Below are positions 43,358 to 63,603 of a stretch of 64,000 nt of DNA, in pieces. The notes beneath the pieces are model-generated. The model did not search any database. It saw only the letters and a list, made by a program, of their open reading frames with translations, and was not told where the DNA came from. Numbering within the stretch: the first letter of the stretch is position 1; every line of letters begins with the position of its first letter. The translations under genes and the position numbers were made by a program. The stretch comes from Anabaena sp. PCC 7108 (GTDB lineage Bacteria; Cyanobacteriota; Cyanobacteriia; Cyanobacteriales; Nostocaceae), in NCBI RefSeq assembly GCF_000332135.1, contig NZ_KB235896.1:1871403-1935402 (forward strand), in the 5' to 3' direction.

Positions 43358-43434
43358 AATAATTTTTAATTAGTAATTCACAATTTGTAATAATGCCGAC
43401 CCCAGTGTACTCCAACATAATTGAGTTTTTTCAG

Positions 43435-43611
43435 AGGGAACAGGAAGCAACTCTTAACAGAAAAAACTCATGTTTAAAAACATGAGATTGAAATAATGAC
43501 ACTGTTTTTTTCGTGTCACTCTCCTTGTAAAAACATCCTTTTTTTGACTGCGCTTTAAACTCTTAAACTTTAGTTTTTTATTTGTTCCCTGTTCCCTGTT
43601 AAGAGTTCCCT
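43435..43611 (-). mobile_element. Dispersed hairpin element, copy A
   Basis: 177 bp with ends of the AGGGAACAGG/CCTGTTCCCT type. Relative to copies B and C it is in reverse orientation. Shared core: GCAGTCAAAAAAAGGATG, the hairpin TGACAC...GTGTCA, the string ATTATTTCAATCTCATG and the palindrome CTCATGTTTTTAAACATGAG. It lies between two convergent genes. Confidence 0.85.
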
Positions 43612-43706
43612 CTCCTAACTATAAAATTTATTTTGCACGACTACTTAAAAGCGGGGGATTAAACCCTGAATTAGTTAAAATAATTTGCCATAGAGCCTCC
43701 GATATG

Positions 43707-44858
43707 TCATCCCAAGTTTTTCATTTTCATAAATAAAGACTCATACTGTTTTATCGTTGCCGATGGTAAAGGTAGTAAAAATTCACTTTTTTTGAGAATT
43801 TCTTGATTCTTTAGTAAGATGTGACTAAATGGTTCCTGAAGTTCAGCATTAGAAATATTTGTAGCCATAGGCGAATTAGTTTTAGTCAGTATTGCAATTT
43901 GCTTGGCTATATTTGGTTGCCAACAAAAATCAATCCATTCAGATGTTAAAGCCTTTTTTTCAACACCTGCGGGACTTACCCATAAATCTGCCCAAATTGC
44001 TGTTCCTGATTGGGGAATAACTACGGCAAGTTTGGGATAGCGATTTAGTATGGGGATGATGTCACTTGACCAACCAACTGCTAACCAAGTATCTCCAGTA
44101 ATTAGCGGTTCTAAATAATTAGTAGAATCATAGAATCTTACCTGTTGATTTAAAGCCTGTAGTTCTGTTTTCAGGGCAGGAATTTGATCAAGATTTTCTG
44201 TATTATAAGATTTTCCCAGTTTCTTTAAAACCAAACCGATGACTTCTCTGGGTTGATTAAGTAGAGAAATGCGCGATCGCAATTCACTCCGCCACAAATC
44301 CTGCCAATCCTGTGGTTGCCAATCAAATTCTTTGAATTTATCACGATTATAAACAATTACTGTACTGCCCCAACGATAAGGCGCACCCCAAACCTGTCCT
44401 TGTGGATTTAGATTCCCTTGGTCATCGCGCCGTACTACTTTTTGCCACTTTTCATCTAAACCTGACCATTCTTTAATTTGTTCTGTTTCTATGGGTTGAA
44501 TTAGTTTTTGTTCAATCGCAGCTTTTAACCAATAATCACCCAATGTCACCAAGTCAGCTTTTGGTGCTTTTTGACTGGGAATCAGGCTCAAAAATCGAGT
44601 TAATCCTTCCTGATTTTTAGCTTTTGGTTGCTGCCAAGTTTGTAATTGCTGAAATAAATTTTTAATCTGATTAATTGGAGAAAACTTTAGCTTTACCTCT
44701 GACTTTATACCTTTGCGAAATTTATTAACCACCTGACCTGGTATGGAACCTTTTAATAACTGTACGTTGAGTTGGATCTGGTTTTTTCCAGCGCACCCAA
44801 TTAGCAGTTGAGAAAAGGCAAGTCCACTTGTGCCTAGCAAAAAAGTCCTTCGATCCAT
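43707..44858 (-). CDS. Substrate-binding lipoprotein, spermidine/putrescine type
   Basis: 383 residues of the PotD/Fe-type solute-binding family. The N-terminus has a twin-arginine-like DRRTFLLG and lipobox LLIGC (about 19-23), so it is a Tat-exported lipoprotein. Conserved blocks: GAPYRWGSTVIVYNRDKF, LAVGWSSD and WADLWVSPAG. No permease or ATPase gene is adjacent. It may deliver polyamines or a related cation to a distant transporter. Confidence 0.8.
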   Translation of the reverse strand: MDRRTFLLGTSGLAFSQLLIGCAGKNQIQLNVQLLKGSIPGQVVNKFRKGIKSEVKLKFSPINQIKNLFQQLQTWQQPKAKNQEGLTRFLSLIPSQKAPKADLVTLGDYWLKAAIEQKLIQPIETEQIKEWSGLDEKWQKVVRRDDQGNLNPQGQVWGAPYRWGSTVIVYNRDKFKEFDWQPQDWQDLWRSELRSRISLLNQPREVIGLVLKKLGKSYNTENLDQIPALKTELQALNQQVRFYDSTNYLEPLITGDTWLAVGWSSDIIPILNRYPKLAVVIPQSGTAIWADLWVSPAGVEKKALTSEWIDFCWQPNIAKQIAILTKTNSPMATNISNAELQEPFSHILLKNQEILKKSEFLLPLPSATIKQYESLFMKMKNLG

Positions 44859-45185
44859 TGATTTTGAAATTTGGAACTATACTTAGTATATTAAGTAATT
44901 TTCAAAAAAGACATAGGATTTGTATTTGATTTTTGTTGAAGCAGCCTGCGCTTTACACTTAAAAAAACCCAGTAAAGATATTCATGCCTTGTTTAGCTTC
45001 GTTTCTGTTGTCCGTTAAGAGTTCCCTGTTCTCTTCCTAGGCAAATAAATATGGCTATATCTCTAGTCAGGCAGACATAAATCAAATCACAATGTTCGGT
45101 GAAATATTAAATAAATCATAAGTATAGTTAACATTGCCAGTAAATTGAATAACATAGAAAAACTATTTTCAAACTAGGGTATTAA
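44859..45185. other. Intergenic region 5' of two divergent genes
   Basis: 327 nt; contains a partial relative of the dispersed element near 45007-45040 (TTAAGAGTTCCCTGTT). No gene or promoter is obvious. Confidence 0.45.
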
Positions 45186-45560
45186 ATGGAGCCATTACAG
45201 AAACAGATACTGACCTTGAGCCAGAAATTAGATGCTCTTTGTCAGGTAATTGAAAAACTCGATCTCAAAGTATCTCAGAGGTTATCTGAGTGTTCTTTAG
45301 ATCAAATACAGACAAAGGATAATTATCAAGAAAATACAGAAACTGAACGTTATCAGTTAAAAAGACATATTAGTTTTAGTGCAGAATTAGAGCATAAGGA
45401 TGTTTTGATAGATGGAATTTGTCCAGACATGAATTTTCAACCTGGAAATAAGCAAATAACCCCAGAAATTCAAATTCAACGGCTGACAGCACAATTAACA
45501 GCAGCATACAATCGCATTGCTGCTTTGGAAGAACAATTAATGCGAGAAAGAATCCACTAA
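45186..45560 (+). CDS. Small coiled-coil protein, function unknown
   Basis: 124 residues, acidic and helical: an N-terminal heptad region (LQKQILTLSQKLDALCQVIEKLD) and a C-terminal coiled coil (QRLTAQLTAAYNRIAALEEQL). No family is recognised. Its stop is 4 nt from the stop of the convergent UPF0284 gene. Confidence 0.6.
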   Translation: MEPLQKQILTLSQKLDALCQVIEKLDLKVSQRLSECSLDQIQTKDNYQENTETERYQLKRHISFSAELEHKDVLIDGICPDMNFQPGNKQITPEIQIQRLTAQLTAAYNRIAALEEQLMRERIH

Positions 45561-45564
45561 TTGC

Positions 45565-46704
45565 TCATTGCTTACGGTTCATAATTTGACTATAACTGAA
45601 TTGCTGAAGTTGGTCTTCAATAGCTGCCAGAAGTTGATCTTGCTGCCAATCGTGACTCAGATAGGCGGCTATACAAGCGGCTCCAGCACCAACACCTTCT
45701 TTAACAAAACCCTGCTCGTAAGCTTGGAGTTGGGGATAATGGGAATCAGCAAAACTCAATTTTGTAGCTAACAGGGGAGGTATTGTCTCACCCTGATTTG
45801 TGGTTTTTTTACCTAAGCTAAGGGCTAAATCAACTGTAGCAGCAGTGGGATCTTCTGCTACCCAACGGGTTGTACCCACAACTATTGCTTCTGGTTGCCA
45901 CGTTAAAGAGTAAGTTTGAGCGATCGCTTGAATTAGAGCATAAACAGCCAGCATTTGTGTACCACCAGCTAATAAAACTCCACAACGACGACTTGCTGCG
46001 ATCGCCATCCCAGCCACTACCACTTGCATGGGATCTCCTACCGCTGCCACAAGTTGTAAAGGGTCTATAGGATTTTGGATTTTTTTTAGACCTGTTTGCA
46101 CCAGCGCCCACTTTTGTTCATGGTTACAAATAGGGTGGCTACTATTTACTTTCCCTGCTGCATCAATACCTAAACCAGATAAAATCGCTAATGCAGTTGT
46201 AGTCCCACCAACTACACACTCACTTAAAATCACATACCCATTTGAAATCTCAGCACTCAGTCGAGAACCCCACAACAAACCCTGTTTTAGCAGGTGTTTT
46301 ACCGTTGCTATTTCCATAGCCGCACCTGTACTTAAACACTTCGCAGGACTTCCACCTAAATCAATCATTGGCACAGTCGGAATATTTAGCAATCCTGCAT
46401 TAAATAAATACACTGGGATATTAAGCGCAGCAACTACAGCACGGGAAATTAACACTGGGGAAGCCCCCGCACTCAAAGGTGGTAAAGCAAACTCAGGCTG
46501 ATGTTCGGCACCGTAATATAAAAATTCAGCATCCGCACAAGCCGTATATTTGCGATCCTCTGGAGTTAAACCTGCTGCCGAAATACCAGGAAGTAAACCA
46601 GTTTCTGTAAAACCTAAAATACAGGCAAAAACAGGTGAACTACCGCGATAACGCCCTAGCCATGCCTCACTCTGTTCTATTTGTGTATAAATCTTAATCA
46701 TCAT
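45565..46704 (-). CDS. UPF0284 / CobT-like family protein (TIGR00303)
   Basis: 379 residues related to nicotinate-nucleotide:dimethylbenzimidazole phosphoribosyltransferase (CobT), which attaches the lower ligand of cobalamin. Blocks: ACILGFTETGLLPGIS, SAGASPVLISRAVV, LSECVVGGTTTALAILSGLGI and GVLLAGGTQMLAVYAL. In this subfamily the true reaction has not been established, and it is annotated as UPF0284 or TIGR00303. If it is a CobT, cyanobacteria that make pseudocobalamin would use adenine. The start is a double ATG; no strong ribosome site. Confidence 0.8.
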   Translation of the reverse strand: MMIKIYTQIEQSEAWLGRYRGSSPVFACILGFTETGLLPGISAAGLTPEDRKYTACADAEFLYYGAEHQPEFALPPLSAGASPVLISRAVVAALNIPVYLFNAGLLNIPTVPMIDLGGSPAKCLSTGAAMEIATVKHLLKQGLLWGSRLSAEISNGYVILSECVVGGTTTALAILSGLGIDAAGKVNSSHPICNHEQKWALVQTGLKKIQNPIDPLQLVAAVGDPMQVVVAGMAIAASRRCGVLLAGGTQMLAVYALIQAIAQTYSLTWQPEAIVVGTTRWVAEDPTAATVDLALSLGKKTTNQGETIPPLLATKLSFADSHYPQLQAYEQGFVKEGVGAGAACIAAYLSHDWQQDQLLAAIEDQLQQFSYSQIMNRKQ

Positions 46705-46742
46705 TAATCATCATGGTCATTTATCACTTATGCCAGGGAAGT

Positions 46743-46838
46743 TGTAATTCGTAATGCTCCCTTCGGGAGAGCTACGCTAACGTAATTCGTAATTCGTAAT
46801 GCTCCCTTCGGGAGAGCTACGCTAACGTAATTCGTAAT
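46743..46838 (+). repeat. Hairpin-plus-heptamer composite repeat, two copies
   Basis: Two copies of a unit with TAATTCG heptamers, then ATGCTCCCTTCGGGAGAGC (a strong hairpin) and TACGCTAAC. The heptamer is the same one that makes the 38-copy array at 61624, so the two loci share a repeat family. Confidence 0.85.
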
Positions 46839-46849
46839 TCGGTTATTTA

Positions 46850-46920
46850 TCCCCACGTCTCCCCATCCCCGTGTCCCCGTGTCCCCGTGTCCCCGCGTCT
46901 CCCCATCCCCGTGTCTTCCC
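46850..46920 (+). repeat. GC-rich minisatellite (CCCCGTGT units)
   Basis: Runs of 8-mers of the type CCCCGTGT / CCCCGCGT with CTCCCCAT variants, directly after the heptamer repeat and up to the stop of the DUF2232 gene. The same family lies at 61955-62065. Confidence 0.85.
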
Positions 46921-46922
46921 AA

Positions 46923-47657
46923 CTAACCCTCATAATCCATTAGTACTTGCACCCAGTGTGGTGGACGAGGAATCGGATTTCCCAAACGATCCAATAACAA
47001 CCATGCTGCCAGATGTACCACAGATAGGTAAATCAGGTTGTTGAATGCTATTAATACTACTGCCCCCACTTGAATGAGAAACACACTTGGAGTCGCTAAT
47101 ATTTCTAACTTCAGAAATATCCACTCAATAATTTCTGTCACCTGGGTAATTACATAAACCCATAGGTCTTCACCTGACAAAACTGACAGCAACCACAAGC
47201 GAAAAAATACACCAAATGTACTTAAAAGCATACCTAAGGTGATAGAAACAATCCAGGGTACACGACGATACCACGTTGCCCCCAACAGCACACCCATTAA
47301 TCCAAAGGGCATGACAAACAAAATACTGCGAACAGGCCCCATTAGCACCGCCAATAGTAAGCCAGAGGTGAGGGCAGCCATCCAAGCAGCACGTTTACCC
47401 CAGCGCAAGTAAACTAGTGCGATCGGTACTGGAAAAAATATCCGTAAAACTGGACCCAAAGGAAAATAAAAGTTAATAAACCAGATCAAACTAGCAGTAC
47501 TGGCTAAAAACGCCGTTTCTACCATCCTCAAAGGGGCATCAACCTTCAGTAAGGGATGGGTTAACGGCTCTTGTTGATCTAACTGATGACCAGAAAGTGA
47601 AGATTCAGGGGATGGATTTTCCTCCGGTTCATCTGGCACAGAATCTAAAATACTCAT
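46923..47657 (-). CDS. DUF2232 membrane protein
   Basis: 244 residues from the ATG at 47657 (a TTG three codons upstream is less likely). It has a Pro/Glu-rich N-terminus followed by six or more hydrophobic segments (from about residue 48). The layout is that of DUF2232/YybS-type integral membrane proteins, whose function is unknown; related S-component-like or sporulation proteins suggest transport. It lies 13 nt downstream of the Crp gene on the same strand, so they are probably co-transcribed. Confidence 0.75.
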   Translation of the reverse strand: MSILDSVPDEPEENPSPESSLSGHQLDQQEPLTHPLLKVDAPLRMVETAFLASTASLIWFINFYFPLGPVLRIFFPVPIALVYLRWGKRAAWMAALTSGLLLAVLMGPVRSILFVMPFGLMGVLLGATWYRRVPWIVSITLGMLLSTFGVFFRLWLLSVLSGEDLWVYVITQVTEIIEWIFLKLEILATPSVFLIQVGAVVLIAFNNLIYLSVVHLAAWLLLDRLGNPIPRPPHWVQVLMDYEG

Positions 47658-47670
47658 ACTGAACAAGATG

Positions 47671-48369
47671 TTAAATTATCATTTTTTCCAAAGCCGACAA
47701 ATCGGGAATACACATTAAATCTTGATCCCGTACAATCAAGCCTTTTTTTTCCAACCTTGTCAATACTCGTGTCACAGTTTCCCGTGCCAGTCCACTCAAA
47801 CTACTCAATTCTCGGTGAGGTAAATTGGGAATTTCTGTGCCTGTTTGCCCTCTTTTACCCTGTCCTTCTGCTAAGAATAGCAAAGTATCTGCCACCCGTG
47901 ATTGACTATCCGATTCCCGCAGACGTAATCGCCGATTTACTTGCCGTAATCGCCGTGCCATTAATTGCGCCAATCTCAGTCCCGCTAAAGGTTCTGTGTG
48001 CAGTAACTTGACAAAATCTTGAGCAGGCATACTGCCAATCATCGTCGGAGTTAAAGTAATCACATCAGTAGAACGAGGAACTTCATCTAGTGCTGCCATT
48101 TCCCCAAATAATTCCCCTTGTCCAATAATATTTAGTGTGACTTCTTTACCTTCTAAATTGTATGTACGGATTTTCACCCATCCATCTACGACAAAATATA
48201 CAGAACCACCCCAGTCATTTTCTAGCAGGATCACTTGATTGGCTGGGTGAGTACGGGTTACAAGATGGGTGAGGGCTTTTTCAACAATAGACTCAGGCAA
48301 CCCTTCAAAAAAGGGTGCTGAAGTGATCCAAGTATGAGCGGTTGTCTGTAAGCTATATCGATCTTCCAT
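47671..48369 (-). CDS. Crp-family cAMP-responsive regulator
   Basis: 232 residues of the Crp/Fnr family, very like cyanobacterial SyCRP1/AnCrp proteins. The cyclic-nucleotide domain has GGSVYFVVDGWVKIR and GEMAALDEVPRST (Glu and Arg of the cAMP-binding pocket kept). The C-terminal helix-turn-helix recognition is HRELSSLSGLARETVTRVL. NtcA, in contrast, lacks this pocket and senses 2-oxoglutarate. It probably binds TGTGA-N6-TCACA-type sites. The ATG at 48369 is chosen over a TTG two codons upstream. Confidence 0.88.
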   Translation of the reverse strand: MEDRYSLQTTAHTWITSAPFFEGLPESIVEKALTHLVTRTHPANQVILLENDWGGSVYFVVDGWVKIRTYNLEGKEVTLNIIGQGELFGEMAALDEVPRSTDVITLTPTMIGSMPAQDFVKLLHTEPLAGLRLAQLMARRLRQVNRRLRLRESDSQSRVADTLLFLAEGQGKRGQTGTEIPNLPHRELSSLSGLARETVTRVLTRLEKKGLIVRDQDLMCIPDLSALEKMII

Positions 48370-48728
48370 TAGCAAATATTTATTAAAGCTGCTATCAACA
48401 CAATAAGCAAGATCGCTGTTTTAAAAATAAGCTATCAAATAACAGCCGCTTTAAAAGAGGAAACTAAACTATGTTACACAAGAAAACGACAATATAGTTT
48501 TTTCTCAGCAATCTTCATCTTATCCATAAATTTCCATGATCGGTGATTACTTACCTCCAGTGCAGCATAACAAAAATAAATATTAACCCTGACGATGCAG
48601 TTGCATCTCTCAGTAATTCATCACATAATTGCCGTCAGAAGTCAGAGCAATAACTTTTGCCACTGAGAACTTCAGTAATTGTGAATACCATAAAAATCAA
48701 AGTACATTTCTAGCTAAGGTAATTTAAC
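48370..48728. other. Divergent gap between crp and the Hsp70-like gene
   Basis: 359 nt with no gene and no repeat seen. I saw no confident promoter elements. Confidence 0.45.
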
Positions 48729-51700
48729 GTGACTTCCCGTGTAGATGAAATTCACAAACTAATCGCAGATATTGACAACTTACTTGCCAACAGTGGCAAC
48801 CGCTTGACAAAACTACTGTCTGGTCAGGGATCGGAAGACAGAGAAGTTTTACACCGAGTTCGTGACTTTCTGATGAAACTCACTGATACTGAGGTATCTG
48901 AAGACAGCACACCTCAGCAATCTGCGACACAACCGCTATCATCTCTGTTGGCGCGATTTGTGGAGCAGGAGAATAATCAATCAGCATCATATTCTGATCA
49001 AATCCAACAGGAACAGAGCAGTGTTGTTGCTGGACAATTAAAAGATCAACTTTCGGTCTTGTTTGAACCCTTACAAGCAGAATTATCAGGACTGTTACAA
49101 GAAAGAGCGACTCTTGTACAAGAAATTAGGCAGCTAGAACAAAAGCGATTGCAAAACTACTCGTTAACGCAGCAGTTAGCAAATCAAGAGCAGATAATTG
49201 CCGAATTTTTACAAGTGCTAATAAATCGCCTAGTACCCAGTCTAACACCACATTTGAAACAAACCGTTTCTCATCCTCCTAGTTCTGCCACCGATGACCA
49301 GAACCAGAATTTAGAAGTCGCAACTGCCGCCATACCATCTAGTTTAGAATCAGCAGAAGGGTTAGACCGATTAGCTAGTCTGGCGAGAGATTTGGATCAA
49401 CGCTTGTTGTCACTAGATGGAACTGTTAATGTTGTCTTTGGCTCTCTAGAGCGTAACATCAATACCTATCATCAGTCTCTATCCCAAGCGCTGGCAAGAA
49501 TGCACAGCCAGGGGATGCAAGGTGAACAGTTGATGGTCAACTTTCTGAATAATTTGACTCAGTATTTACAACAACAATCCCTAGATCCCCAGCCTTTATT
49601 TTCTGGGGTAGATACTGACTTAGAGGTACAGCGAGTTTCGACTAGTTCTGAAATAGTAAGTCAACCTTCACCATTAATCCAGTTAGAAAATAACTCTTCA
49701 TTTCATGCTGCTGCAATAGAAGACTCTACGACTGTGGAAAATCTGGATGCAGTACTGTCATATCTTACCAGCGATGAGTTTCTAGATTCAAACCCTGCTG
49801 TTACGACTTCAGAGGAATTACAGTCAGAGGGTGTTGAAGAAAGTCTAGATGCAGTACTTTCAGAAATTACCATAGATGATTCTGTCACTTCTACCTCAGA
49901 GGGTGTTGAAGAAAGTCTAGATGCAGTACTTTCAGAAATTACCATAGATGATTCCGTAACTTCCACCTCAGAGGAATTACAGTTAGAGAGTGTTGAAGAA
50001 AGTCTAGATGCAGTACTTTCAGAAATTGCCATAGATGATTCTGTCACTTCCACCTCAGAGGAATTACAGTTAGAGACTCCTAATGCAGTAGATCAACTTT
50101 ACGCGAGTTTGTTTGGCACTGAAAATTCTACTATTTTCAGAGAGTCGATTGCTCCACCAATGATCACACCTGAGTTATCGGCTCCAGAAATAACGGAAAC
50201 TCCCAATATTTCAGAACAGAGCCACAATCCCATGACAGAATTCTCTGATGCTCTCATAGATTCCACAGAGTCATCATCTGAGTTATGGGAAAGCTTGTTG
50301 TTAACGGAGGATACACAATCGGAAGCTGAAGTTACCACCACAGATACTGCTTCCATAGAACTCGACTCTTTACCAGATCGGACTGATACGATTACAGTTC
50401 TTACTGATTTACTAGTTGATGCCAGCAGTGACCAACAAGTTTTAGATGTGTTACCTCTTGAGGATAGTTTAGAAGTTACAACTGCGGAAACTCTCATCAT
50501 GTCCTCATCAATCGAGGTGCAAACAGAGGAACAGGATTTACTTGTATCTGGTTACACGGCTGCTTCACCACAGGAAAATTTATTGTCTCTGGAAAATAAT
50601 GAAGCAAAAATTGTTCCAGAAATTGTTCTAGACGAAGAGCAGTTGCAACAATTAAATCGAGATCTAGCGGATTTTGATTGGCAGTTAAATTCTGCCTCAG
50701 CATCTCCTATTAACTCAGAAAGGTTGCCAAATTCTCTCGATACAGTTGTAAAGATAACTGAAGAGCCTAACAACCAACCAGTAGAAAATACAGCAACAGT
50801 TGCTGTTCCTGATCTGGATCTTCCTCAATTGGAAGTTGGGCTAGATTTGAATCAGACAACTGAAAAAAAAACGGAAGTCACAATTTTTTTCCAGGATGCT
50901 TCTTTGCCTACCAGTAACAATTTGAATCTTACTGCTGATGTGGCAGTCACAGACCTGGATTCAATTTGGTATTTAGGAATTGATTTGGGTACGACTGGAA
51001 TTTCTGCGACACTTTTGAATCGTTCCAGATCCGTTGTTTATCCTATCTACTGGTCAGCACAAACTCAAATAGGCGAAACTGTTTTTGATCAATCATTTCG
51101 CTTACCTGCAGAAGTTTACCTACCTACAGTTTCTATACCTCACACAGAGACTATTGAGCAGACAACACCTGCGGCTGTCGCTAAGGATAAAGTCTCTGAT
51201 AATCTGGTTCAAAATTCTCCCCTACATGAATCGCCAGAAGAACCAAAGCCTCATCTTTATTCAACACATTTAAAGCCTTACTTACACGTAGCTATACCTT
51301 ACAAGAATACCCAGCAAAAATGGGAACCTGTGTTGCAGTTAAATGAATTTTCAGCCGGACCGTTGATTTGGGTAGTGCGATCGCTCTCTAAACTATTATT
51401 AACTCTCAAATCTGATCAAACTAGTACTACTCCAGCTTTAATTGCTCATGCTGTAGGCATAGATACACAAACTTTCTCTCATATCATCAATAACGTTGCG
51501 GGTGTTGTTTGTACTTGTCCCACTAATTGGTTAGAACAATATCGCTTTAATGTGCGGGAAGCTATTCTTACCAGTAAACTTGTCTCCCATGCCCAACAAG
51601 TATTTTTTGTTGAGGAAGCGATCGCTAGTTTACTCCCAGAACTTGATAGCATCGATTCTCAACCAGTCCAAGTCAGTGACAATCAGGGCTTGCGTCCTTT

Positions 51701-53373: not shown

Positions 53374-54081
53374 GTGTCCCTGTCTACTCTTAAAAATAAA
53401 ACCAAAAGTTACACTGTGGCTAATTTAAGTGTTCTGAACCATCTGACTGTAATTGATGTATCATCACAGTCCCTCCATCCATCAACTACTAGTACTACTA
53501 AAAGATTAATTGATATTCTTGGAGCCATTGTTGGCTTAATAATTGCATTTTTAGTCGCACTTCCCATAGCAATTGTCACTTTATTTAGTGATCCAGGTCC
53601 CATACTATATTCCCAAATCCGCTGTGGTTTAAATGGACGCAACTTTCGGATCTGGAAGTTCCGTTCCATGATCATTAATGCCGATAAACTGAAGTCTCTA
53701 GTCAAAAATCAAGCTCAAGGTCACATTTTTAAATCTACTGATGATCCTCGGATTACTCCTTTAGGTAAGTTTTTACGACGCAGTAGCTTAGACGAATTAC
53801 CTCAATTTTGGAATGTTTTAATGGGAGATATGAGCATAGTTGGCACTCGTCCACCTACTCCTGATGAAGTAATTCACTATGAACCACATCATTGGGATAG
53901 ATTGCGCGTTAAACCAGGCATTACTGGAGAGTGGCAGACTCATGGTCGTTCTCAAATCAAAGACTTTGAAACTATTGTCAATATGGATTTAGATTATCAA
54001 CGTAAGTGGTCTATCACTTATGATTTGATGCTCATGTTTAAGACTATTTGGGTAGTTTTAAACAGAAGTGGTGCTTATTAA
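53374..54081 (+). CDS. Exopolysaccharide sugar transferase (undecaprenyl-phosphate type)
   Basis: 235 residues, GTG start. One N-terminal membrane helix (about 47-70) and the Bac_transf core: KFRSMIINAD, DPRITPLGKFLRRSSLDELPQFWNVLMGDMS, GTRPP and KPGITGEWQ. It moves a sugar phosphate from a nucleotide sugar onto the lipid carrier as the first step in making exopolysaccharide repeat units. Heterocyst-envelope polysaccharide synthesis uses enzymes of this family (HepC), but the assignment here is open. Confidence 0.85.
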   Translation: MSLSTLKNKTKSYTVANLSVLNHLTVIDVSSQSLHPSTTSTTKRLIDILGAIVGLIIAFLVALPIAIVTLFSDPGPILYSQIRCGLNGRNFRIWKFRSMIINADKLKSLVKNQAQGHIFKSTDDPRITPLGKFLRRSSLDELPQFWNVLMGDMSIVGTRPPTPDEVIHYEPHHWDRLRVKPGITGEWQTHGRSQIKDFETIVNMDLDYQRKWSITYDLMLMFKTIWVVLNRSGAY

Positions 54082-54095
54082 AAAATTACAAAAGA

Positions 54096-54272
54096 AGGGA
54101 ACAGGGAACAGGGAACAGGGAACAAATAAAAAACTAAAGTTTAAGAGTTTAAAGCTCAGTCAAAAAAAAGGATGTTTTTTGAGATGCGTAGCACGAAAAA
54201 AACAGTGTCATTATTTCAATCTCATGTTTTTAAACATGAGTTTTTTCTGTTAAGAGTTGCTTCCTGTTCCCT
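54096..54272 (+). mobile_element. Dispersed hairpin element, copy B
   Basis: 177 bp, AGGGAACAGG start and CCTGTTCCCT end. Nearly identical to copy A in the reverse direction, except for a diverged stretch (GAGATGCGTAGC) where A and C read ACAAGGAGAGTGAC. It lies between the stops of two convergent genes. Confidence 0.85.
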
Positions 54273-54283
54273 CTGAAAGAATA

Positions 54284-55120
54284 TTAACCCTTGACACCAC
54301 TACCACTATCAGTTGGTACAATGTACCTCTGTAAAAATAAAAATAATAGCAACACTGGAGCAATAGAAATTACTGAACCAGCCGCTACTAATCGCCAATC
54401 TAAAGAAAACGTACCGGCAAGTTTAGCAACTCCCAAGGGTAAAGTATATAAACTTTCATCTTGGATAACAATTAAAGGCCATAAAAAGTCACTCCAAGCG
54501 CCAATAAATACAAAAATAGCTAGGGTTATTAGTGCTGGACGAATAGCAGGTAACATTATATGCCACCACAATTCTAGTTCTGAACTGCCATCTAAACGGG
54601 CAGCTTCTTCTATTTCCTTAGGCACGCCCATAAAAGCCTGCCGCAATAAAAAAATACCGAAGGCAGATGCTAAACTGGGGAAAATTATCCCTAAATAACT
54701 ATTTCTCAACCCTAACTGCACTGTCAAAATATATAAGGGAATCATCACGATTTGGAAAGGAATCATGATTGTCGAAACCATACCAATAAAAATTCCGTCT
54801 CGTCCTACAAACGATAATCTGGCTAAGGGATAAGCCGCTAAAGCACAAAATAATAGATTTAATCCCACGGTTAGCACAGCTACCAATAGACTATTATATA
54901 GGTACTGACCAAATGGTAAAGATTCCCACACCCTAGAGAAGTTGTTAAATGTGGGTTGGCTGGGTAATAACTGCGGCGGTGATTGTAGGATGTTTTCTGT
55001 TGGTGATTTTAAGGCTGTGCTAATTAGCCATAACAAAGGGAAGAGTGTAAATAGTGCGATCGCTCCTAGTATTCCATAAATTAATAACGTTTGCAGCCGT
55101 GAATTTTTTAAGTTCAGCAT
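54284..55120 (-). CDS. Carbohydrate ABC transporter permease (MalG/AraQ type)
   Basis: 278 residues, six membrane helices. The EAA loop EEAARLDGSSELELWWHIMLP (about 178-198) is the coupling segment of sugar permeases, and the N-terminus ends in a helix typical of the MalG branch. It lacks adjacent binding protein and partner permease genes. Likely sugar or sugar-alcohol uptake. Confidence 0.85.
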   Translation of the reverse strand: MLNLKNSRLQTLLIYGILGAIALFTLFPLLWLISTALKSPTENILQSPPQLLPSQPTFNNFSRVWESLPFGQYLYNSLLVAVLTVGLNLLFCALAAYPLARLSFVGRDGIFIGMVSTIMIPFQIVMIPLYILTVQLGLRNSYLGIIFPSLASAFGIFLLRQAFMGVPKEIEEAARLDGSSELELWWHIMLPAIRPALITLAIFVFIGAWSDFLWPLIVIQDESLYTLPLGVAKLAGTFSLDWRLVAAGSVISIAPVLLLFLFLQRYIVPTDSGSGVKG

Positions 55121-55148
55121 TTTAATTTTTAATTTTTAATTTTTAATT
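55119..55148 (+). repeat. AT octanucleotide array, second copy
   Basis: About three to four copies of TTTTTAAT between the permease start and the cyclo-ligase stop, identical in type to the array at 26436-26475. Confidence 0.8.
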
Positions 55149-55150
55149 GT

Positions 55151-55723: not shown

Positions 55724-55922
55724 TGTCCAATTTTAATGTTGCTGTTGTTTTTATTCTAGTCAAGCAAAAACCTGATGGAGTTAATTAAATCAAGTATTTT
55801 TTTAGGGTAATACTGTACTTAAAAATTCGGGGAGATTTAGACCCATAAGGGTAATGCAACCTCCCCAGATTTCAAAACCTTAATTCTTTCTTAGGTACTT
55901 ATAGGCGCTCAGTCCACTGAAA

Positions 55923-56867
55923 TTATTCAGCATTTTGACGGTACCAGTCGATGGTATTTTTTAGCCCTTGTTCAAAGCTAACTTGAGCAGTAAATCCAAA
56001 GGCTTGGTTTGCTTTTTCGATATCCAAACAACGACGGGGTTGTCCATTTGGCTGGTCAGTTTCCCAAACAATTTCACCTTCATACTCCATCAATTCTGCA
56101 ATTAAAGTAATTAGGTTTTTGATCGATATTTCATAACCAGTTCCCAAATTAACTGGTTCAGAATCGTTATAGAATTTTGTACCCATGACAATACCCCGTG
56201 CGGCATCGGTAGAATACAAAAATTCACGGGTAGGAGAACCGTCACCCCAAACAGGAAGTTGTTTTTCTCCCTTAATTTGAGCTTCGTGAACTTTGCGAAT
56301 TAACGCCGGAATGACATGAGAACTGCTGGGGTTAAAATTATCTTCAGGTCCATATAAATTCACGGGCAGCAAGTAAATACCGTTAAAGCCATACTGCTGG
56401 CGGTAAGATTGCAATTGGACTAAAAGAGCTTTCTTAGCGACTCCATAGGGAGCATTTGTTTCTTCTGGATAGCCATTCCACAAATCTTCTTCTTTAAATG
56501 GGACTGGAGTAAATTTGGGATAAGCGCAGATAGTACCCACACAAACAAATTTTTCTAAACCCACTTGATAGGCAGCATGGATTAGCTGGGTTCCCATGAT
56601 CAAGTTATCGTAGAATAACTCGGCAGGTTTTTCGCGGTTTAGTCCAATACCGCCTACATGAGCTGCTAAGTGAATGACAATATCTTGCTGATCAACAGCA
56701 CGTTGGCAATTTTCCCAAACTCGCAAATCACAATCATGCGATCGCGGTACTGTAATTTTCTCACGGTCTGCCCCGAACTGACACAGCTGATCTATCACCT
56801 GACGACCTAGAAACCCCGACCCACCAGTAACCAGAATTCGTTTGTTTTGTAGTTCTAAGACAGTCAT
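55923..56867 (-). CDS. fcl: GDP-L-fucose synthase
   Basis: 314 residues, epimerase/reductase of the short-chain fold. [11 protein letters not shown] (about 16-26) is the NADP motif; YGVAKKAL holds the catalytic Tyr-x3-Lys (about 141-145). With Gmd, encoded 25 nt upstream on the same strand, it converts GDP-mannose to GDP-fucose. It lies in the surface-sugar block. Confidence 0.92.
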
Positions 56868-56892
56868 ATTTTTATCCTTGGCAAAGTTTGAA

Positions 56893-57972
56893 TCAAAAGT
56901 GGAGAGTGCCTAGTTCCTGACGAATAGTAGCAATATCACGGGGGTGTTGTGAACCATTACCATTGGGAGACTTGCAACCTAACGCTTGTAAGTCACCTTC
57001 TACCATCAAAGCTACAAGTTCTTTAAACGTTACTGAAGGTTTCCAACCTAATATTTGCTGCGCTTTAGTAGGGTCACCAATTAACAAATCCACTTCAGAT
57101 GGGCGCAGATAACGCTCGTCAAACTCGACATAATCTTCCCATTTGAGATCCACATAACCAAATGCCAATTCCAAAAACTCTTTGACAGAGTGAGTTTCCC
57201 CAGTCGCAATCACGTAATCATCTGGCTTGTCTTGCTGCAACATCAACCACATTGCTTTTACATAATCTTTGGCATAACCCCAGTCTCGCTTGGCATCTAA
57301 ATTGCCCATATAAATATTTTTCTGTTTACCAGCAAAGATGCGAGCGACAGCTCTAGTGATTTTCCGAGTCACAAAGGTTTCACCTCGACGTGGTGATTCA
57401 TGGTTAAACAGAATTCCATTGCAGGCAAATAAGTCGTAAGATTCACGATAATTCACTGTTTGCCAGTGGGCATAAACTTTAGCACAAGCATAGGGACTGC
57501 GGGGATAAAAGGGAGTTGTCTCACTTTGTGGTACGGCTTGGACTAAACCATACATTTCCGAAGAACCGGCTTGGTAGAATCTGACTTGAATTCCTGTGCG
57601 TTGTTGATAGTCACGGATAGCTTCTAATAAACGTAGGGTTCCCATCCCTACTGCATCTACTGTGTATTCTGGTGAATCAAAGCTGACTCTAACGTGAGAT
57701 TGAGCGCCCAAATTATAAATTTCTGTAGGCTTGACTTCTTCTAAAATCCGGCGCAAGGTAGTACCGTCTGTCAAGTCACCATAGTGAAGTAATAACTTTA
57801 CCCCTTCTTTATGAGGATCTTCATAAATATGATCAATGCGGTCTGTATTAAAGGTGGAAGTGCGACGAATAATACCGTGAACTTCATAGCCTTGTTCTAG
57901 TAAAAACTCACTTAGGTAAGAACCATCTTGACCAGTGATACCAGTAATCAACGCTCGCTTTGGTTGCATCAT
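56893..57972 (-). CDS. gmd: GDP-mannose 4,6-dehydratase
   Basis: 359 residues; turns GDP-mannose into the 4-keto-6-deoxy intermediate. [23 protein letters not shown] (NAD motif), SSEMYG and [15 protein letters not shown] (Tyr-x3-Lys) are unmistakable. The start is an ATG at 57972 ([10 protein letters not shown]), not the TTG two codons upstream. First gene of a gmd-fcl pair. Confidence 0.95.
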
Positions 57973-58492
57973 ACCCAATTACCCCTTTTTGTTGTAAATG
58001 TTATTGAAGATAGGAAAGTTACAGTCCATCTGAGATAAAGTAACAGCTAATGGCTAAAATTGTCTAATAATAAACCTAAAAGTCTGAGTTGATATCTCAT
58101 GGCAAATGTAACCTATTATACTTTATTCAAAGTATTTTAACAAGTTTAGATAATTTTTATGTAAATCAAAATTATTGGTATAAATTTATATTTATGCAAA
58201 TCTTTATCAAAATTTTATTGATTATTGGTTTTTGTGAAGCTTGTGCAAAAGGTGGTAAGTAAGTGAGGGTGAATATTTATCGTTAGAATCAGGCCAGATG
58301 TAGAAGGTTTGAGTAACATTCATTTTTGTTCATTGATCAAAAAAGTCTTCCCATCTTTGTGTCAGCCCTAATTATAAGTCTTTAAATAGAAACAATATAA
58401 ATTAAAAATCAAGTAAAACCGACTTGTGATAATAAGCAGAACAGCTTATCTGTAGAGCAACTCACGCCCCCAGATAAGCTATGAGTCTTTTC
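57973..58492. other. AT-rich gap upstream of gmd
   Basis: 520 nt with no gene; it contains the gmd promoter region. No box recognised. A TTATCTG..CAGATAA inverted repeat (58445-58480) may end the downstream minus-strand sugar transferase transcript. Confidence 0.5.
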
Positions 58493-59251
58493 CTAGTATG
58501 CTCCGTTATTTTTGGGCATTATGACAACATCAATGGTTTTTAAGATGATCCATAAATCTAGCCAAAAATTCCTAAACTTGACATAGTGCAGATCTATTTG
58601 GACTCTCCGGGGGTAAGGAATATCATTACGTCCAGACACCTGCCATAATCCAGTAATTCCCGGACGGATGATTAAAATCTGATCAATATGACAACCATAT
58701 TTTGGTAATTCTTCCGCTACTAAGGGGCGGGGACCAACAACACTCATATCCCCCGTTAAAACGTTCCAAAACTGGGGAAATTCGTCCAAGCTGGTAATTC
58801 GCAAGAAATGACCAATTTTGGTAATCCGGGGGTCTTTTTTGAGCTTAAAAGTACTGGAAAATTCTTGACGCAACTCTGGGGATGTTTCCATCATTTGGAC
58901 GAGAATTTCGTCTGCATTGCTGACCATCGTGCGGAATTTAATACAATTAAATCGGCGATAGTTTTTACCAACTCTTTCTTGAACATAAAAAATCGGACCT
59001 TCTGAACTGACAGCAATCAGTAAGGCCAAAATTATGTAAAGGGGGAAAAACAAGATCAAGACCGACAGTGAAAACACAATATCAAACAGTCGTTTGGCAA
59101 ACTCTCCGTTTAAACCCTGAAAAGACAAACCTCTAGGTTGTACCTTTGGCGGTTTAGTTTTTTTACCACGTTTTGCTAAAGTATGCGTCGAAGCATTGGC
59201 ATCTTTACGTGGGTATCGCTTGCCGGAGAGGAGTGAGCTCTGGGCAGTCAT
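58493..59251 (-). CDS. Exopolysaccharide sugar transferase, second copy
   Basis: 252 residues from an ATG at 59251, with AAGGAG 4 nt upstream (another ATG is directly before it). A basic N-terminus, one or two membrane helices (about 70-95), then CIKFRTMVSNAD, DPRITKIGHFLRITSLDEFPQFWNVLTGDMS, GPRPL and RPGITGLWQVSGR, the Bac_transf core, ending NNGAY. It begins the lipid-linked repeat unit, like its relative at 53374. The two are clearly paralogues. Confidence 0.88.
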   Translation of the reverse strand: MTAQSSLLSGKRYPRKDANASTHTLAKRGKKTKPPKVQPRGLSFQGLNGEFAKRLFDIVFSLSVLILFFPLYIILALLIAVSSEGPIFYVQERVGKNYRRFNCIKFRTMVSNADEILVQMMETSPELRQEFSSTFKLKKDPRITKIGHFLRITSLDEFPQFWNVLTGDMSVVGPRPLVAEELPKYGCHIDQILIIRPGITGLWQVSGRNDIPYPRRVQIDLHYVKFRNFWLDLWIILKTIDVVIMPKNNGAY

Positions 59252-59370
59252 CATACTCCTTAATAATCCACACCACACATAGTCCCGATCTTAAAGCTAA
59301 AAGGCAGTGATTCTGGGTAAAAATTCCCAAAAGCCTAGAAAAGAAATACAGAAATGTAGACTATTTAATC

Positions 59371-60507
59371 TCAAGAGGGTCTTTTTTCTTGACATTGATA
59401 CAAAAAATCTAGATAGCGCTCTGCGAAGACTTGTCTAGAAAACTGGGTAGAGTGTAATCGTATATACTCATAATTAAAAAGATCCTGATAGACTTCAAAC
59501 TTTTCTACTGCCTCCACTAAAGCTGCTACTGTTTGTGATCTGAAAAAGATACCTGTACCTGTGTCTACACAGGTACGAATATCTTGTACAGTCTCTAAAG
59601 CACCTCCGGCACCATACGCAATGACCGGAGTTCCACAAGCTTGAGCCTCAACTAGGGCAATGCCAAAATCTTCACAAGCTGCATACACAAATGCTTTAGC
59701 ACGAGCCATGTATTTTTTGACTATATCATCGGGTTGCCATCCCAGTATTTGGATATGAGGATTTGCTATCTCACGCAGCTTTTTCATTTCGGGGCCTGTG
59801 CCAATCACCACCAATGGTCGTTTTAGTTGATTAAAAGCTTGAACAATCAAGGATACTTGTTTATAACTCACTAATCGGGAAACGATCAGATAAAAATCCT
59901 CTTTGTCAGCTAAAAAAGGACAATTTTCGATATTTACAGGTGGGTAAATGACTTCTGCTTCTCGCCGATAGCAACGCCAAATCCGCCTAGCTGTATGCTG
60001 TGAGTTGGCAATGAAGTAATCAACACGGTTGGCACTCAATACATCCCATTGACGCAAACTATGCAAGAGATATCTTGTCATCCATCCAATCCAGCCTTTT
60101 CCTAGTTTGCTCTGGTCTAGATAATCAAAAGTCAAGTCCCAAGCATAGCGCATTGGGCTATGACAATAACAGATGTGTAATTGGTCAGGAGTAGTGAGGA
60201 TTCCTTTGGCGACTGCATGAGATGAAGACAGAATTACGTCATACTGCCGCAAATCTAATTGTTCGATGGCTAATGGTAACAAAGGCAAATACTTTTGTAT
60301 ACCTTTTTGGGCTAATGGGAAGTGTTGGAGAAATGTTGTCCCAATCTGATGTTTGTATAAATAACTTTCAGGATTACTGGATTCAAAATCTATGAGCGCA
60401 TACAAATCAGCTTCAATGTGATTTAAAATTTCCTGGACAACGAGTTCTGAACCACCTGTGGCTTTAGGTGTCAGCCACTCATGAATAAGAGCATATTTCA
60501 AGGACAC
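59371..60507 (-). CDS. Glycosyltransferase family 4
   Basis: About 378 residues from a GTG at 60507; a TTG two codons further in and another upstream are alternatives. GT-B fold: YALIHEWLTPKATGGSEL at the start, YCHSPMRYAWDLTFDYL, FIANSQHTARRIW, VSRLVSYKQVSLIVQAF and the nucleotide-sugar site ACEDFGIALVEAQACGTPVIAYGAGGALE. It probably adds a sugar to the exopolysaccharide. It lies upstream of the sugar transferase gene on the same strand, with a 119-nt gap. Confidence 0.85.
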   Translation of the reverse strand: MSLKYALIHEWLTPKATGGSELVVQEILNHIEADLYALIDFESSNPESYLYKHQIGTTFLQHFPLAQKGIQKYLPLLPLAIEQLDLRQYDVILSSSHAVAKGILTTPDQLHICYCHSPMRYAWDLTFDYLDQSKLGKGWIGWMTRYLLHSLRQWDVLSANRVDYFIANSQHTARRIWRCYRREAEVIYPPVNIENCPFLADKEDFYLIVSRLVSYKQVSLIVQAFNQLKRPLVVIGTGPEMKKLREIANPHIQILGWQPDDIVKKYMARAKAFVYAACEDFGIALVEAQACGTPVIAYGAGGALETVQDIRTCVDTGTGIFFRSQTVAALVEAVEKFEVYQDLFNYEYIRLHSTQFSRQVFAERYLDFLYQCQEKRPS

Positions 60508-60700
60508 TGTTAATGTAGGGGGCAAGGGGCAGGGGTAGAAGCTATTGAGTTTTCAATTTCGATTTGATGAGGAAGCCGATGGTTCTTGATTAAACAGAAG
60601 ATGCAATCCTAGCAAAGATGTTCCAAGATGATGCTGCAACCTGATAACCTCAAAGACGAGGGTGATGAAAGAAAATAACTGACATAGGAATTGGGGTTTT

Positions 60701-61633
60701 ATGCGAATTCTGATTATTGGTGGTACTCGGTTTATTGGTGTGTATCTGACTCAGCTATTGCTGGAAACTGGACATGAGGTGGTGTTTTTTAATCGTGGTA
60801 ATTCTCCAGCACCAATGGGAGTAGGACAAATTATAGGCGATCGCACTGACTCTAGCCAATTAAAAGCTAAGTTATCACCAGAAAATTTTGATGTGATTTT
60901 TGATAATAACGGTCGGGAACTGGCAGATACTCAGCCACTGGCAGAAATTTTTCAAGGACGAGTTCAACATTTTGTCTATATGAGTTCTGCTGGAGTATAT
61001 CTTAAATCTGACCAAATGCCTCATCTAGAGGGTGATGCTGTCGATCCTAAGAGTCGTCACAAGGGTAAGCATGAAACGGAAGCTTACTTGCAACAATCGG
61101 GAATTCCTTTTACTTCTATTCGTCCCACTTATATTTACGGACCGAAGAACTATAACGAGTTGGAAGGCTGGTTTTTTGATAGAATTGTCCGCGATCGCCC
61201 GATTCCTATTCCCGGTAATGGAATGCATATCACTCAGCTAGGCCATGTCAAGGATTTAGCCCAAGCCATGACTCAGGTCATCGGTAACGAAAATGCTATC
61301 CAGAAGATTTATAATATCTCTGGCGATCGCTTTGTGACTTTTGATGGTTTAGCTCGTGCTTGTGCTGTGGCTGCTGGTAAATCAGCAGATGATCTGAAAA
61401 TTGTCCATTATGACCCGAAAAAGTTTGATTTCGGTAAACGAAAAGCTTTTCCCATGCGAGTACAACACTTTTTTGCATCGGTAACTAAAGCGCAAATAGA
61501 ATTAGACTGGCAACCTCAATATGATTTAATTTCTGGGCTGAAAGATTCTTTGGAAAATGATTATTTTCTCTCTGGGCGGGATAAATTAGAGCTAGATTTT
61601 TCTGTAGATGAAGAGATTTTAACTAATTCGTAA
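60701..61633 (+). CDS. NAD-dependent epimerase-like protein (CSP41b type)
   Basis: 310 residues, extended SDR fold. LIIGGTRFIGVYLTQLLLE (about 4-22) binds NAD and the fold resembles plant CSP41b, an RNA-binding relative; the usual Tyr-x3-Lys is not clear (KGKHETEAYL instead), so it may not be an active epimerase. The last two residues (Asn-Ser) and the stop TAA come from the heptamer array at 61624, so the natural C-terminus was replaced or extended by the repeat. Confidence 0.8.
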   Translation: MRILIIGGTRFIGVYLTQLLLETGHEVVFFNRGNSPAPMGVGQIIGDRTDSSQLKAKLSPENFDVIFDNNGRELADTQPLAEIFQGRVQHFVYMSSAGVYLKSDQMPHLEGDAVDPKSRHKGKHETEAYLQQSGIPFTSIRPTYIYGPKNYNELEGWFFDRIVRDRPIPIPGNGMHITQLGHVKDLAQAMTQVIGNENAIQKIYNISGDRFVTFDGLARACAVAAGKSADDLKIVHYDPKKFDFGKRKAFPMRVQHFFASVTKAQIELDWQPQYDLISGLKDSLENDYFLSGRDKLELDFSVDEEILTNS

Positions 61634-61889
61634 TTCGTAATTCGTAATTCGTAATTCGTAATTCGTAATTCGTAATTCGTAATTCGTAATTCGTAATTCG
61701 TAATTCGTAATTCGTAATTCGTAATTCGTAATTCGTAATTCGTAATTCGTAATTCGTAATTCGTAATTCGTAATTCGTAATTCGTAATTCGTAATTCGTA
61801 ATTCGTAATTCGTAATTCGTAATTCGTAATTCGTAATTCGTAATTCGTAATTCGTAATTCGTAATTCGTAATTCGTAATTCGTAATTCG
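61624..61889 (+). repeat. 38-copy heptanucleotide array (TAATTCG)
   Basis: Uninterrupted (TAATTCG)38 = 266 bp, in exact phase along its whole length. It is a short tandemly repeated repetitive (STRR) sequence of the class known in heterocystous cyanobacteria. Because 7 is not a multiple of 3, the minus strand is open in all three frames and gives the same peptide (YELRITN) in each. Confidence 0.95.
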
Positions 61890-62065
61890 TAAACAGGGAA
61901 CACGGAGATATGGGAACACGGAGATATGGGAAAAGAAGACAATCTCTCTTTCTCACCGCGTCTCCCCATCACCGCGTCACCGCGTCCTCTTCTTCCCCAT
62001 CACCGTGTCTCCGCGTCCCCGTGTCCCCGCGTCCCCGTGTCCCCGCGTCCCCGCGTCATCTAGTT
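61890..62065 (+). repeat. Mixed minisatellite after the heptamer array
   Basis: First two copies of ACACGGAGATATGGGA, then a GC-rich zone of CCCCGTGT/CCCCGCGT 8-mers and CCCCATCACCG variants. It runs into the 3' end of pgsA and is related to the one at 46850-46920. Confidence 0.85.
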
Positions 62066-62570
62066 GATTATTTGCAGGTATCAGATAAATTACACCTGAT
62101 ATGACGGTAAAAAAGACAGATACCCAGAAGGCAATTAAAGCTGGCTTTTGCCAAACTGGTGATAAAGGTGCAATGAGTAGGGATATGGCCACTATTTGAC
62201 TAACTGTTTTCAGTTTTCCCCAAATATTTGCACCAGTGATAGTTGTTTGATTGACTCGCCAACCTGCGATCGCTATTTCCCGTGCTAAAATTACAAATAC
62301 TCCCCAAGCAGGAATTTTTCCTAATTCCACTAATACTAATAATGGTGCTAACACCAACAATTTATCTACTAAAGGATCAAGAAATTTTCCTAATTCGCTA
62401 ATTTGGTTAAGTTTTCTGGCTAAATATCCATCTAACCAATCGGTTAAAGCGGCAATTACAAATATTGTTAAACATATCCACCTGGCTTCACTTGTGGGAT
62501 TATATAAACCGTAAAGTAAAAATGGTATTCCCAGAAGACGAGAGAAAGTAATCCAGTTAGGTAAAGTCAT
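61977..62570 (-). CDS. pgsA: CDP-diacylglycerol--glycerol-3-phosphate 3-phosphatidyltransferase
   Basis: 197 residues; makes phosphatidylglycerol phosphate, needed for photosynthetic membranes. The CDP-alcohol motif D44-x2-D47-G-x2-A-R-x8-G-x3-D65-x3-D69 is complete, with several membrane helices around it. The family core ends near LIPANN; the last 27 residues (about 171-197, AGTRGHGDAGTRGRGD-type) are translated from the minisatellite, so the tail is not native. The enzyme should still work, as the catalytic part is intact. Confidence 0.9.
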   Translation of the reverse strand: MTLPNWITFSRLLGIPFLLYGLYNPTSEARWICLTIFVIAALTDWLDGYLARKLNQISELGKFLDPLVDKLLVLAPLLVLVELGKIPAWGVFVILAREIAIAGWRVNQTTITGANIWGKLKTVSQIVAISLLIAPLSPVWQKPALIAFWVSVFFTVISGVIYLIPANNQLDDAGTRGHGDAGTRGRGDTVMGKKRTR

Positions 62571-62887
62571 AAATACAGCACACCATTCATAAAATTCTGT
62601 TAGATTTACCTATTATCAATAAAAACGGTCAAAAAGTACAGGTGAAAGTTACGACTCTGAGCAGGTATGAAGACTTTACATATGATGTCAAAATTAGTTT
62701 AAATCCCAAGCAAAATAGTCAGTTTACCAAATTATTCCTTTCGATATACATTCATCCTATCACAAGCAAAACTATCGACAGAGATAGCGTAAATTTTATT
62801 TTGCTAAACCTATAATTGAAACCTTGTGAATACTCTTGAGGCATTTGACTCAATACTAGAAATATCATATACAGCAAGGTAAGTAAT
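62571..62887. other. Divergent gap between pgsA and a small membrane protein
   Basis: 317 nt with no gene and no repeat seen; contains the divergent promoters. Confidence 0.45.
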
Positions 62888-63277
62888 ATGCATATTGATC
62901 AGATATTGCAACAAAAGGTATTAGCAAATACGACTACGAATCAGTTACTTCGCCGCGATATTCCACAGGATCAGGTACAACAGGATGGAGTAAATCTCAC
63001 GGATTTAGCAATATCTTTAAGTCCTTTGAGCTTTATCTTGATTTGGGCTATTTTTCTGGTTATTTTGCAAAAAACCCGTTCTCATTTAGACAACAAGATA
63101 GTTTTTACTATTAATGGGTTGCAGAAAGTCCCTTGTAAAAACTGTAAATTTTTTTCCAATAACCATTATCTTAAGTGTGCTGTACAGCCAGATATTGTTC
63201 TCACGGAAGAGGCTATACATTGTTCTGAATACTGCCCTAGAAAAGTTAAATTTTCCGTAAATCAATTCTTTAATTAA
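62888..63277 (+). CDS. Small membrane protein with Cys-rich C-terminus
   Basis: 129 residues. One membrane helix (about 45-63), then a soluble tail with VPCKNCKFFSNNHYLKC, ending VTEEAIHCSEYCP-like; five or six cysteines in C-x2-C and C-x3-C spacing suggest metal or Fe-S binding, or disulfides. I recognise no family name; this pattern recurs in unnamed cyanobacterial proteins. No strong ribosome site. Confidence 0.6.
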   Translation: MHIDQILQQKVLANTTTNQLLRRDIPQDQVQQDGVNLTDLAISLSPLSFILIWAIFLVILQKTRSHLDNKIVFTINGLQKVPCKNCKFFSNNHYLKCAVQPDIVLTEEAIHCSEYCPRKVKFSVNQFFN

Positions 63278-63423
63278 GTCCAATTTTGGTGTCTTTGTTT
63301 CATATCAAGTTGGGCTAATTGCGGATAAAAAATTTTCCTTATACCCATGTTAGCCTTAATGATAAGTATATCTCTAAGGACAAGCTCAAGCGAAAAACCT
63401 GACAATTAATTAATTACAAAAAA

Positions 63424-63603
63424 AGGGAACAGGGAACTCTTAACAGGGAACAGATAAGAAACTTTAGTTCTGAGTTTAAAGCTCAGTCAAAAAAAGGATA
63501 TTTTTACAAGGAGAGTGACACGAAAAAAACAGTGTCATTATTTCAATCTCATGTTTTTAAACATGAGTTTTTCCTGTTCCCTGTTGCCCGTTCCCTGTTC
63601 CCT
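63424..63603 (+). mobile_element. Dispersed hairpin element, copy C
   Basis: 180 bp, AGGGAACAGG start and CCTGTTCCCT end, same orientation as copy B. It holds three hairpins: CTGAGTTTAAAGCTCAG, TGACACGAAAAAAACAGTGTCA and CTCATGTTTTTAAACATGAG. It overlaps the 3' end of the HEAT gene. Confidence 0.85.

Follow-up and report, generated by a model that had tools for sequence, protein, structure and literature searches.

A stretch of 64,000 nucleotides from Anabaena sp. PCC 7108 (C2:1871403-1935402 of a genome with 5.89 Mb in 3 contigs, referred to as the window) contains three copies of a short repeat with complementary ends, GGGAAC and GTTCCC, and an inner palindrome that we call H2. They are members of a family of gene-free small mobile elements located nearly always directly 3' of the tetranucleotide TTAC. 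An earlier note on this DNA had described the three copies, their ends and the palindrome, and each of these is present in its place. The true ends of the element, however, lie slightly farther out, at about 43430–43610 for copy A, 54090–54277 for copy B and 63418–63608 for copy C.

Copy B (188 bp, plus strand) is abutted on its left side by TTAC (54086–54089, plus strand), the target, which is retained in the flank. It comprises a heptamer array with four GGGAACA units (54097–54124) and H2 (54221–54240), an 8-bp stem followed by TTTTTT, which is separated from the right end by 37 nt and from the left end by about 130 nt. Copy C (191 bp, plus strand) also abuts a TTAC (63414–63417, plus strand) and contains H2 at 63548–63567. 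Copy A is located on the minus strand. Its left end is altered and lacks TTAC; a heptamer-type array is found at about 43583–43610, H2, CTCATGTTTTTAAACATGAG followed by a T run, at 43467–43486 and the right end CTGAA at 43430–43434. Two details of the previous description had to be revised. A TGACAC...GTGTCA hairpin is not common to all copies, the 5' arm in copy B being TAGCAC and the corresponding stretch folding no better than shuffles. Furthermore, copy B is not merely missing ACAAGGAGAGTGAC but carries an alternative middle segment, which is common to other copies, too.

Copy B is flanked by two convergent genes, one for a bacterial sugar transferase (53374–54081, plus strand) and one for a membrane component of a transport system (54284–55120, minus strand). 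The convergent setting reported for all three copies holds for A and B. For copy C it depends on a left-hand open reading frame (ORF; 62888–63277), which was not called by our coding-score caller and had no Pfam match, and on a right-hand minus-strand ORF (63557–63985), which terminates within the element, 52 bp inside.

Copy number, boundaries and target site

A genome search for the palindrome with up to three mismatches yielded 50 forward and 51 reverse matches (a palindromic pattern is reported on both strands at each site), compared to 0 and 1 for the reversed-pattern controls. When one mismatch was permitted, the left-end pattern matched 59 times; the right-end pattern matched 47 times, with 0 control matches in both cases. 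Because these numbers far exceed the controls, the three repeats of the window are not a chance occurrence. With copy A as query, 42 matches were obtained in the same genome (40 of 185 candidates scored). After fetching the palindrome sites and removing one wrong-strand match (L081 minus), the total is 51 copies with lengths of 141–355 bp, mostly about 170–210 bp. This match was removed before the orientation, flank and end counts, and is still included in our earlier flank and gene-neighbor tables. Orphan ends were observed in 17 stretches of the genome; as judged from about 400 bp at each of 11 left ends out of 12, they resemble truncated copies, copies with nested repeats, or left ends fused to other sequence. 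At L134, L138 and L142 of the same genome, a left end TTACAAAARAAGGGAAC leads into differing interiors. A repeat with TAGGACTTACGCA-type ends is nested in or adjoins copies at L062, L127 and L141, and L088 contains a GGGAGCATCCCA...TGGGATGCTCCC element by which TTAAACATG was apparently duplicated.

Relatives of the element were found in 26 of 59 other genomes, all from the same family (Nostocaceae), with at most 13 candidates scored per genome; many of these matches, e.g. in the congener G001, comprise the heptamer part only. The exact core pattern matched 41 stretches in a search of genome contigs that may omit the own genome. The majority belong to Dolichospermum sp. ST_sed8; further carriers are Trichormus NMC-1, Anabaena lutea, Anabaena sp. 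CRKS33, two Nostoc strains, two more Dolichospermum strains and an uncultured cyanobacterium. Nine plasmid records matched wholly or partly. Carriage by phages was rejected, with zero matches to the element in the phages collection and zero matches to the exact core pattern in viral contigs. The sequence GGGAACAGGGAACAGGGAAC was not found in the literature text searched, outside of which lie the supplementary tables of PMC3542288, and four papers containing TTTAAACATGAG were unrelated as judged by title.

At the left boundary, TTAC is followed by AAAARAAGGGAACA, with which the element begins, and by 1–17 heptamer units: TTAC is succeeded by AAAAGAA or AAAAAAA and then by GGGAACA-type heptamers spanning 7 to 119 nt. 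At the right end, CTTCCTGTTCCCTCTGAA, the edge is sharp and the sequence beyond it is unrelated. Our first boundary pattern largely required [TC][TC]AC at the left, which makes its left-flank table partly circular. The left end is readable in 50 own copies, and a neutral recount that did not presuppose TTAC found it in front of 46 of these. The remaining four comprise one with TCAC, one with CTAC and two, including window copy A, whose left ends are altered; the left end is absent from the last of the 51 copies. CTGAA closes 47 of 50 matched right ends, with one more copy unmatched by the pattern. Among 50 copies from other genomes, 40 left ends included 34 with TTAC, and 43 right ends included 38 with CTGAA. 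One copy in Dolichospermum sp. ST_sed8 (L113, L169) has TGAC at the left and ATGAC at the right end, as though the two junctions had changed in concert. The GGGAACA heptamer and its variant GGGAACTCTTAACA also occur inside unrelated repeat elements of other genomes (L101, L102, L103, L104 and L105).

Among 49 two-ended copies, 2, 4 or 5 flank bases were repeated in none and 3 bases in a single one, so the target-site duplication of usual DDE-type miniature inverted-repeat transposable elements (MITEs) is absent. Four copies interrupt tandem repeats in phase, namely L070 (CAATTAC), L089 minus (GAATTAC), L064 (GAATTAC, with a single unit left of the element) and L100 (AAGATTTAC-like). TTAC is therefore part of the target.

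A comparison with congeners provided evidence for insertion. The L100 site was located in three congeners (G001, G002 and G003), whose alignments cross the junction without a gap there. This is the one straightforward empty site; L064 is the next best. The gene pair around copy B is present without the element in four of four congeners. Nine other copies, compared with four congeners, gave 24 loci, which cover 22 of 36 copy-genome pairs; L092 is not represented among them, and L084 and L091 are represented by a single flank. The core was present in none of these loci. The congener gaps for L072, L076, L078 and L093 contain other sequence instead. The suggestion that the repeat is a MITE thus stands in substance, as it is short, multi-copy, gene-free and its insertions are absent from every congener locus examined; it fails with respect to target-site duplication.

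Folding and gene context

Folding of copy A surpasses 200 of 200 shuffles (z = -4.6), chiefly through end-to-end pairing and H2. For a comparative analysis we aligned 65 bodies (37 own and 28 other distinct sequences), excluding copies with nested inserts or irregular ends. H2 is almost invariant in this set, which is no proof of selection for pairing. The GAG...CTC hairpin is retained in 82% of cells, the TGACAC...GTGTCA segment is wholly absent from 7 of the 65 bodies, and L073, L177 and L062 contain the middle segment as its reverse complement. At L073, L177, L062 and L078 the middle segments lie at their usual position, but in inverted orientation, between runs of A and T.

Compensatory changes, proposed in the earlier note as a check of the stems, gave a mixed picture. 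One pair of the outer stem varies on both sides (G-C in 25, A-T in 24, G-T in 13 and broken in 1), which may reflect subfamily descent. The consensus fold of the aligned bodies contains 12 pairs and zero covariation. In the named structure, 3 pairs changed on both sides, a number reached by 2 of 500 shuffles. A control slid by one column resulted in 24 both-side-change cells and a score of 0.074, compared to 26 and 0.075 for the real structure. Since the slid control scores nearly as high, covariation is weak evidence for the stems.

Genes were called with a home-made coding-score caller, which placed a gene on either side of 50 of the 51 copies. These 50 copies are located between same-strand (tandem) genes in 27 cases, between convergent genes in 17 and between divergent genes in 6. 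The statement that every copy lies between convergent genes consequently does not extend to the genome, where 33 of 50 lie elsewhere; copies between same-strand genes had been named beforehand as an observation that would speak against it. No copy lies wholly inside a called gene, and five overlap the 3' end of a gene. In these overlaps (window 63557–63985, L068, L084, L098 and L099) the element provides the last codons and the stop.

As background we used 376 gaps between genes, taken from the same stretches, which show partial overlap with one another and with the window, and retaining the gaps of the window copies and of the orphan ends. The 17 convergent copies compare with 78 of 376 gaps (20.7%, p = 0.03), 17.9% of gap length (p = 0.005) and 234 of 1,037 TTAC sites (22.6%, p = 0.06). 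For the 6 divergent copies the corresponding values are 70 of 376 gaps (p = 0.28), 28.2% of gap length (p = 0.011) and 284 of 1,037 TTAC sites (p = 0.016). This distribution is consistent with insertions being selected against where they damage coding or promoter DNA. In tandem gaps the plus strand of the element is antisense to the genes in 19 cases and sense in 8 (p = 0.05), with 332 antisense and 291 sense sites in the TTAC background. Since the terminator-like site of copy B is on the plus strand, this lean looks like avoidance of termination. It is the opposite of what selection for termination would predict.

These data bear on the proposal that the repeat is a domesticated bidirectional terminator or an RNA element maintained between convergent genes. 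In its favor, H2 with TTTTTT does resemble a terminator, H2 is nearly invariant over the 65 bodies, and convergent gaps are mildly over-represented among the copies. A bidirectional terminator in a convergent setting should, however, have sites on both strands, whereas the region 53900–54400 contains a single terminator-like site, H2 and TTTTTT of copy B, on the plus strand only. On the basis of this one-strand site and the genome-wide orientation count, a bidirectional terminator between converging genes was rejected; the three window copies are a favorable sample. The antisense lean in tandem gaps and the persistence of the convergent gene pair of copy B in congeners lacking the element point in the same direction. 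A known RNA family was rejected as well, as a scan of the window at Rfam gathering scores yielded one tRNA and nothing at the copies. Overall, a maintained function in termination or as RNA appears very improbable.

Mode of transposition

We propose that the repeat is a non-autonomous transposable element, which a transposase of the IS200/IS605 type (Y1, HUH) most likely mobilizes in trans in the form of single-stranded DNA, and assign a probability of roughly 0.6 to this reading. According to the portions of the published descriptions available to us, IS608 inserts 3' of TTAC, leaves TTAC in the left flank and uses AAAG as its left guide, and members of the IS200/IS605 family generally insert at a fixed short sequence with zero target duplication. 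The element in Anabaena sp. PCC 7108 follows the same rules: it is inserted 3' of a fixed tetranucleotide, TTAC, which is retained on the left, it has no target-site duplication, and TTAC is directly followed by AAAAG or by an A run ending in G. Because of this agreement we favor transposition in trans by a Y1 enzyme. Seven Y1_Tnp matches are present in the genome, with Y1 genes at C1:135672 and at C2:855232, 858276, 2210155 and 3607509.

In the proposed mechanism, the left heptamer array and the TGTTCCC-rich right end would pair to form an outer stem, with H2 and the weaker GAG...CTC hairpin serving as putative binding hairpins. A Y1 enzyme would cut after TTAC and after CTGAA, and the cut strand would be circularized and then inserted 3' of another TTAC. 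Copies would persist in non-coding DNA and be thinned from divergent, promoter-side gaps; termination at H2 and its T run would be a by-product.

Several observations weigh against this proposal. A scan of the seven own Y1_Tnp loci for the left end, the right end and the palindrome found nothing. Among 39 Y1 loci, of which 11 are stretches of the own genome and 28 come from relatives (30 of 80 matches being covered by loci), no Y1 gene was accompanied by both ends or by the palindrome. Three single-end matches in this set were mismatched or in coding DNA (L126, L189 and L197), and BLAST matches at L193, L143 and L119, as well as a weak one in L209, were confined to the heptamer. In 28 of 28 Y1 matches from three further searches of copy-bearing genomes, two parts of the element never occurred together; isolated weak matches were seen in L214, L256, L259, L262, L263, L270 and L271. 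A Y1 transposase with the same ends was thus not found in the loci scanned, which is compatible with an enzyme acting in trans without recognizable ends. The element also has complementary ends, GGGAAC and GTTCCC, whereas IS200/IS605 elements are described, in the part of the literature at hand, as having no terminal inverted repeats. H2 is remote from both element ends. The base after the insertion is C in 7 of 49 cases, without the preference known from IS608. Finally, the congener sites of copy B are not clean empty sites, since about 45 bp of spacer differ (missing here).

The element can be compared with known systems. In the excerpts on IS608 and the IS200/IS605 family, the shared features are insertion 3' of TTAC, target retention on the left, absence of duplication and AAAG after TTAC; the differences are the lack of tnpA and tnpB, a right end CTGAA instead of TCAA, complementary ends and the absent C preference. 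The palindrome-associated transposable elements (PATEs) of Haloquadratum, as far as covered in the available text of PMC3119063, are likewise gene-free and multi-copy, with inner palindromes, a 4-6-base boundary target as in the IS605 type, no target duplication and polymorphic insertions. PATEs, however, have no terminal inverted repeats and share their palindromes with IS605-type transposons, while the present element has complementary ends and no such partner turned up. Next to the Y1 genes of the scanned loci, we observed one H2 match with 4 mismatches instead of shared near-terminal palindromes. The small mobile repeats (SMRs) described in the same text are about 110 bp or somewhat longer, too short to encode a transposase, and resemble the element in their complementary ends, the lack of duplication and a mobilizer that is not known; their ends bear no relation to the transposons that were examined. 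The complementary ends and missing duplication of our element agree with this description, its relatedness to transposons having been compared against Y1 loci alone. According to that source SMR-A targets PATEs and IS605-type elements, whereas the element here targets TTAC, and the consulted part contains no mention of a TTAC rule for SMRs. The element is therefore intermediate between PATEs and SMRs without fully conforming to either definition, as it joins the complementary ends, missing duplication and lack of a known mobilizer of SMRs to a target rule resembling that of PATEs. In a related host, Anabaena sp. 90, the accessible part of PMC3542288 describes type II MITEs of 77-541 bp without a partner insertion sequence, one group of which has three sets of inverted repeats. 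Judged by this description and not by sequence, they are perhaps the same family; a TTAC rule is not mentioned in that part.

A different mover has to be considered, too. The element could be a small mobile repeat mobilized by a non-Y1 enzyme, either a DDE transposase with the GGGAAC/GTTCCC ends as its substrate, which would make it an ordinary type II MITE, or a novel enzyme as proposed for SMRs. Complementary ends suit such a mover, and a Y1 partner was not found in the loci scanned. Usual DDE elements are not known to leave a one-sided target, a fixed orientation and no duplication, and exactly these traces are observed here, with TTAC on one side only. Precedents exist in the consulted parts of PMC3542288, with 147 'type II MITEs' without a partner insertion sequence in Anabaena sp. 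90, and of PMC3119063, with the Haloquadratum SMRs and their zero duplication. On balance we regard a non-Y1 mover as unlikely, but as deserving serious attention. A host gene of the RAYT type might instead cut at the foot of the outer stem. RAYTs are thought to mobilize repetitive extragenic palindromes (REPs) and REPINs. L145 encodes a 190-aa Y1-like ORF, which we take to be RAYT-like, flanked by hairpins with the 3' tails TCTGAT or TCTGAA; TCTGAA is also the terminal sequence of the element, behind the outer stem. The hairpin beside L145, however, has no similarity to the element. The common tail amounts to 5-6 bases, the examination of that hairpin covering about 0.6 Mb, and TCTGA was all that the L145 hairpins and the element had in common when compared as RAYT-associated REPs. 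L145 as the mobilizer would be a lead only, and we consider this explanation quite improbable.

Returning to transposition by a Y1 enzyme, a more specific and distinctly speculative version would be a gene-free single-stranded DNA transposon with no surviving master copy, whose ends are joined via variable heptamer arrays into one branched hairpin and which is cut after TTAC and CTGAA by a Y1 enzyme kept by the host, perhaps the RAYT-like one. If this was true, the tandem heptamer repeat of these cyanobacteria would be a transposon end structure.

Two further repeat structures were noticed in the window. A 1439-aa ORF (6673–10992) contains thirteen 126-bp repeats at 9136–10947, and a tandem array with a 14-bp unit is located at 61554–61952.

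The position of the three repeats between convergent genes illustrates that a genome-wide count is needed before such elements receive a regulatory label. The results link a tandem heptamer repeat with a transposable element. In addition, TTAC-specific insertion without duplication offers a testable mechanism for a family of small repeats of cyanobacteria that lacks a known mobilizer.

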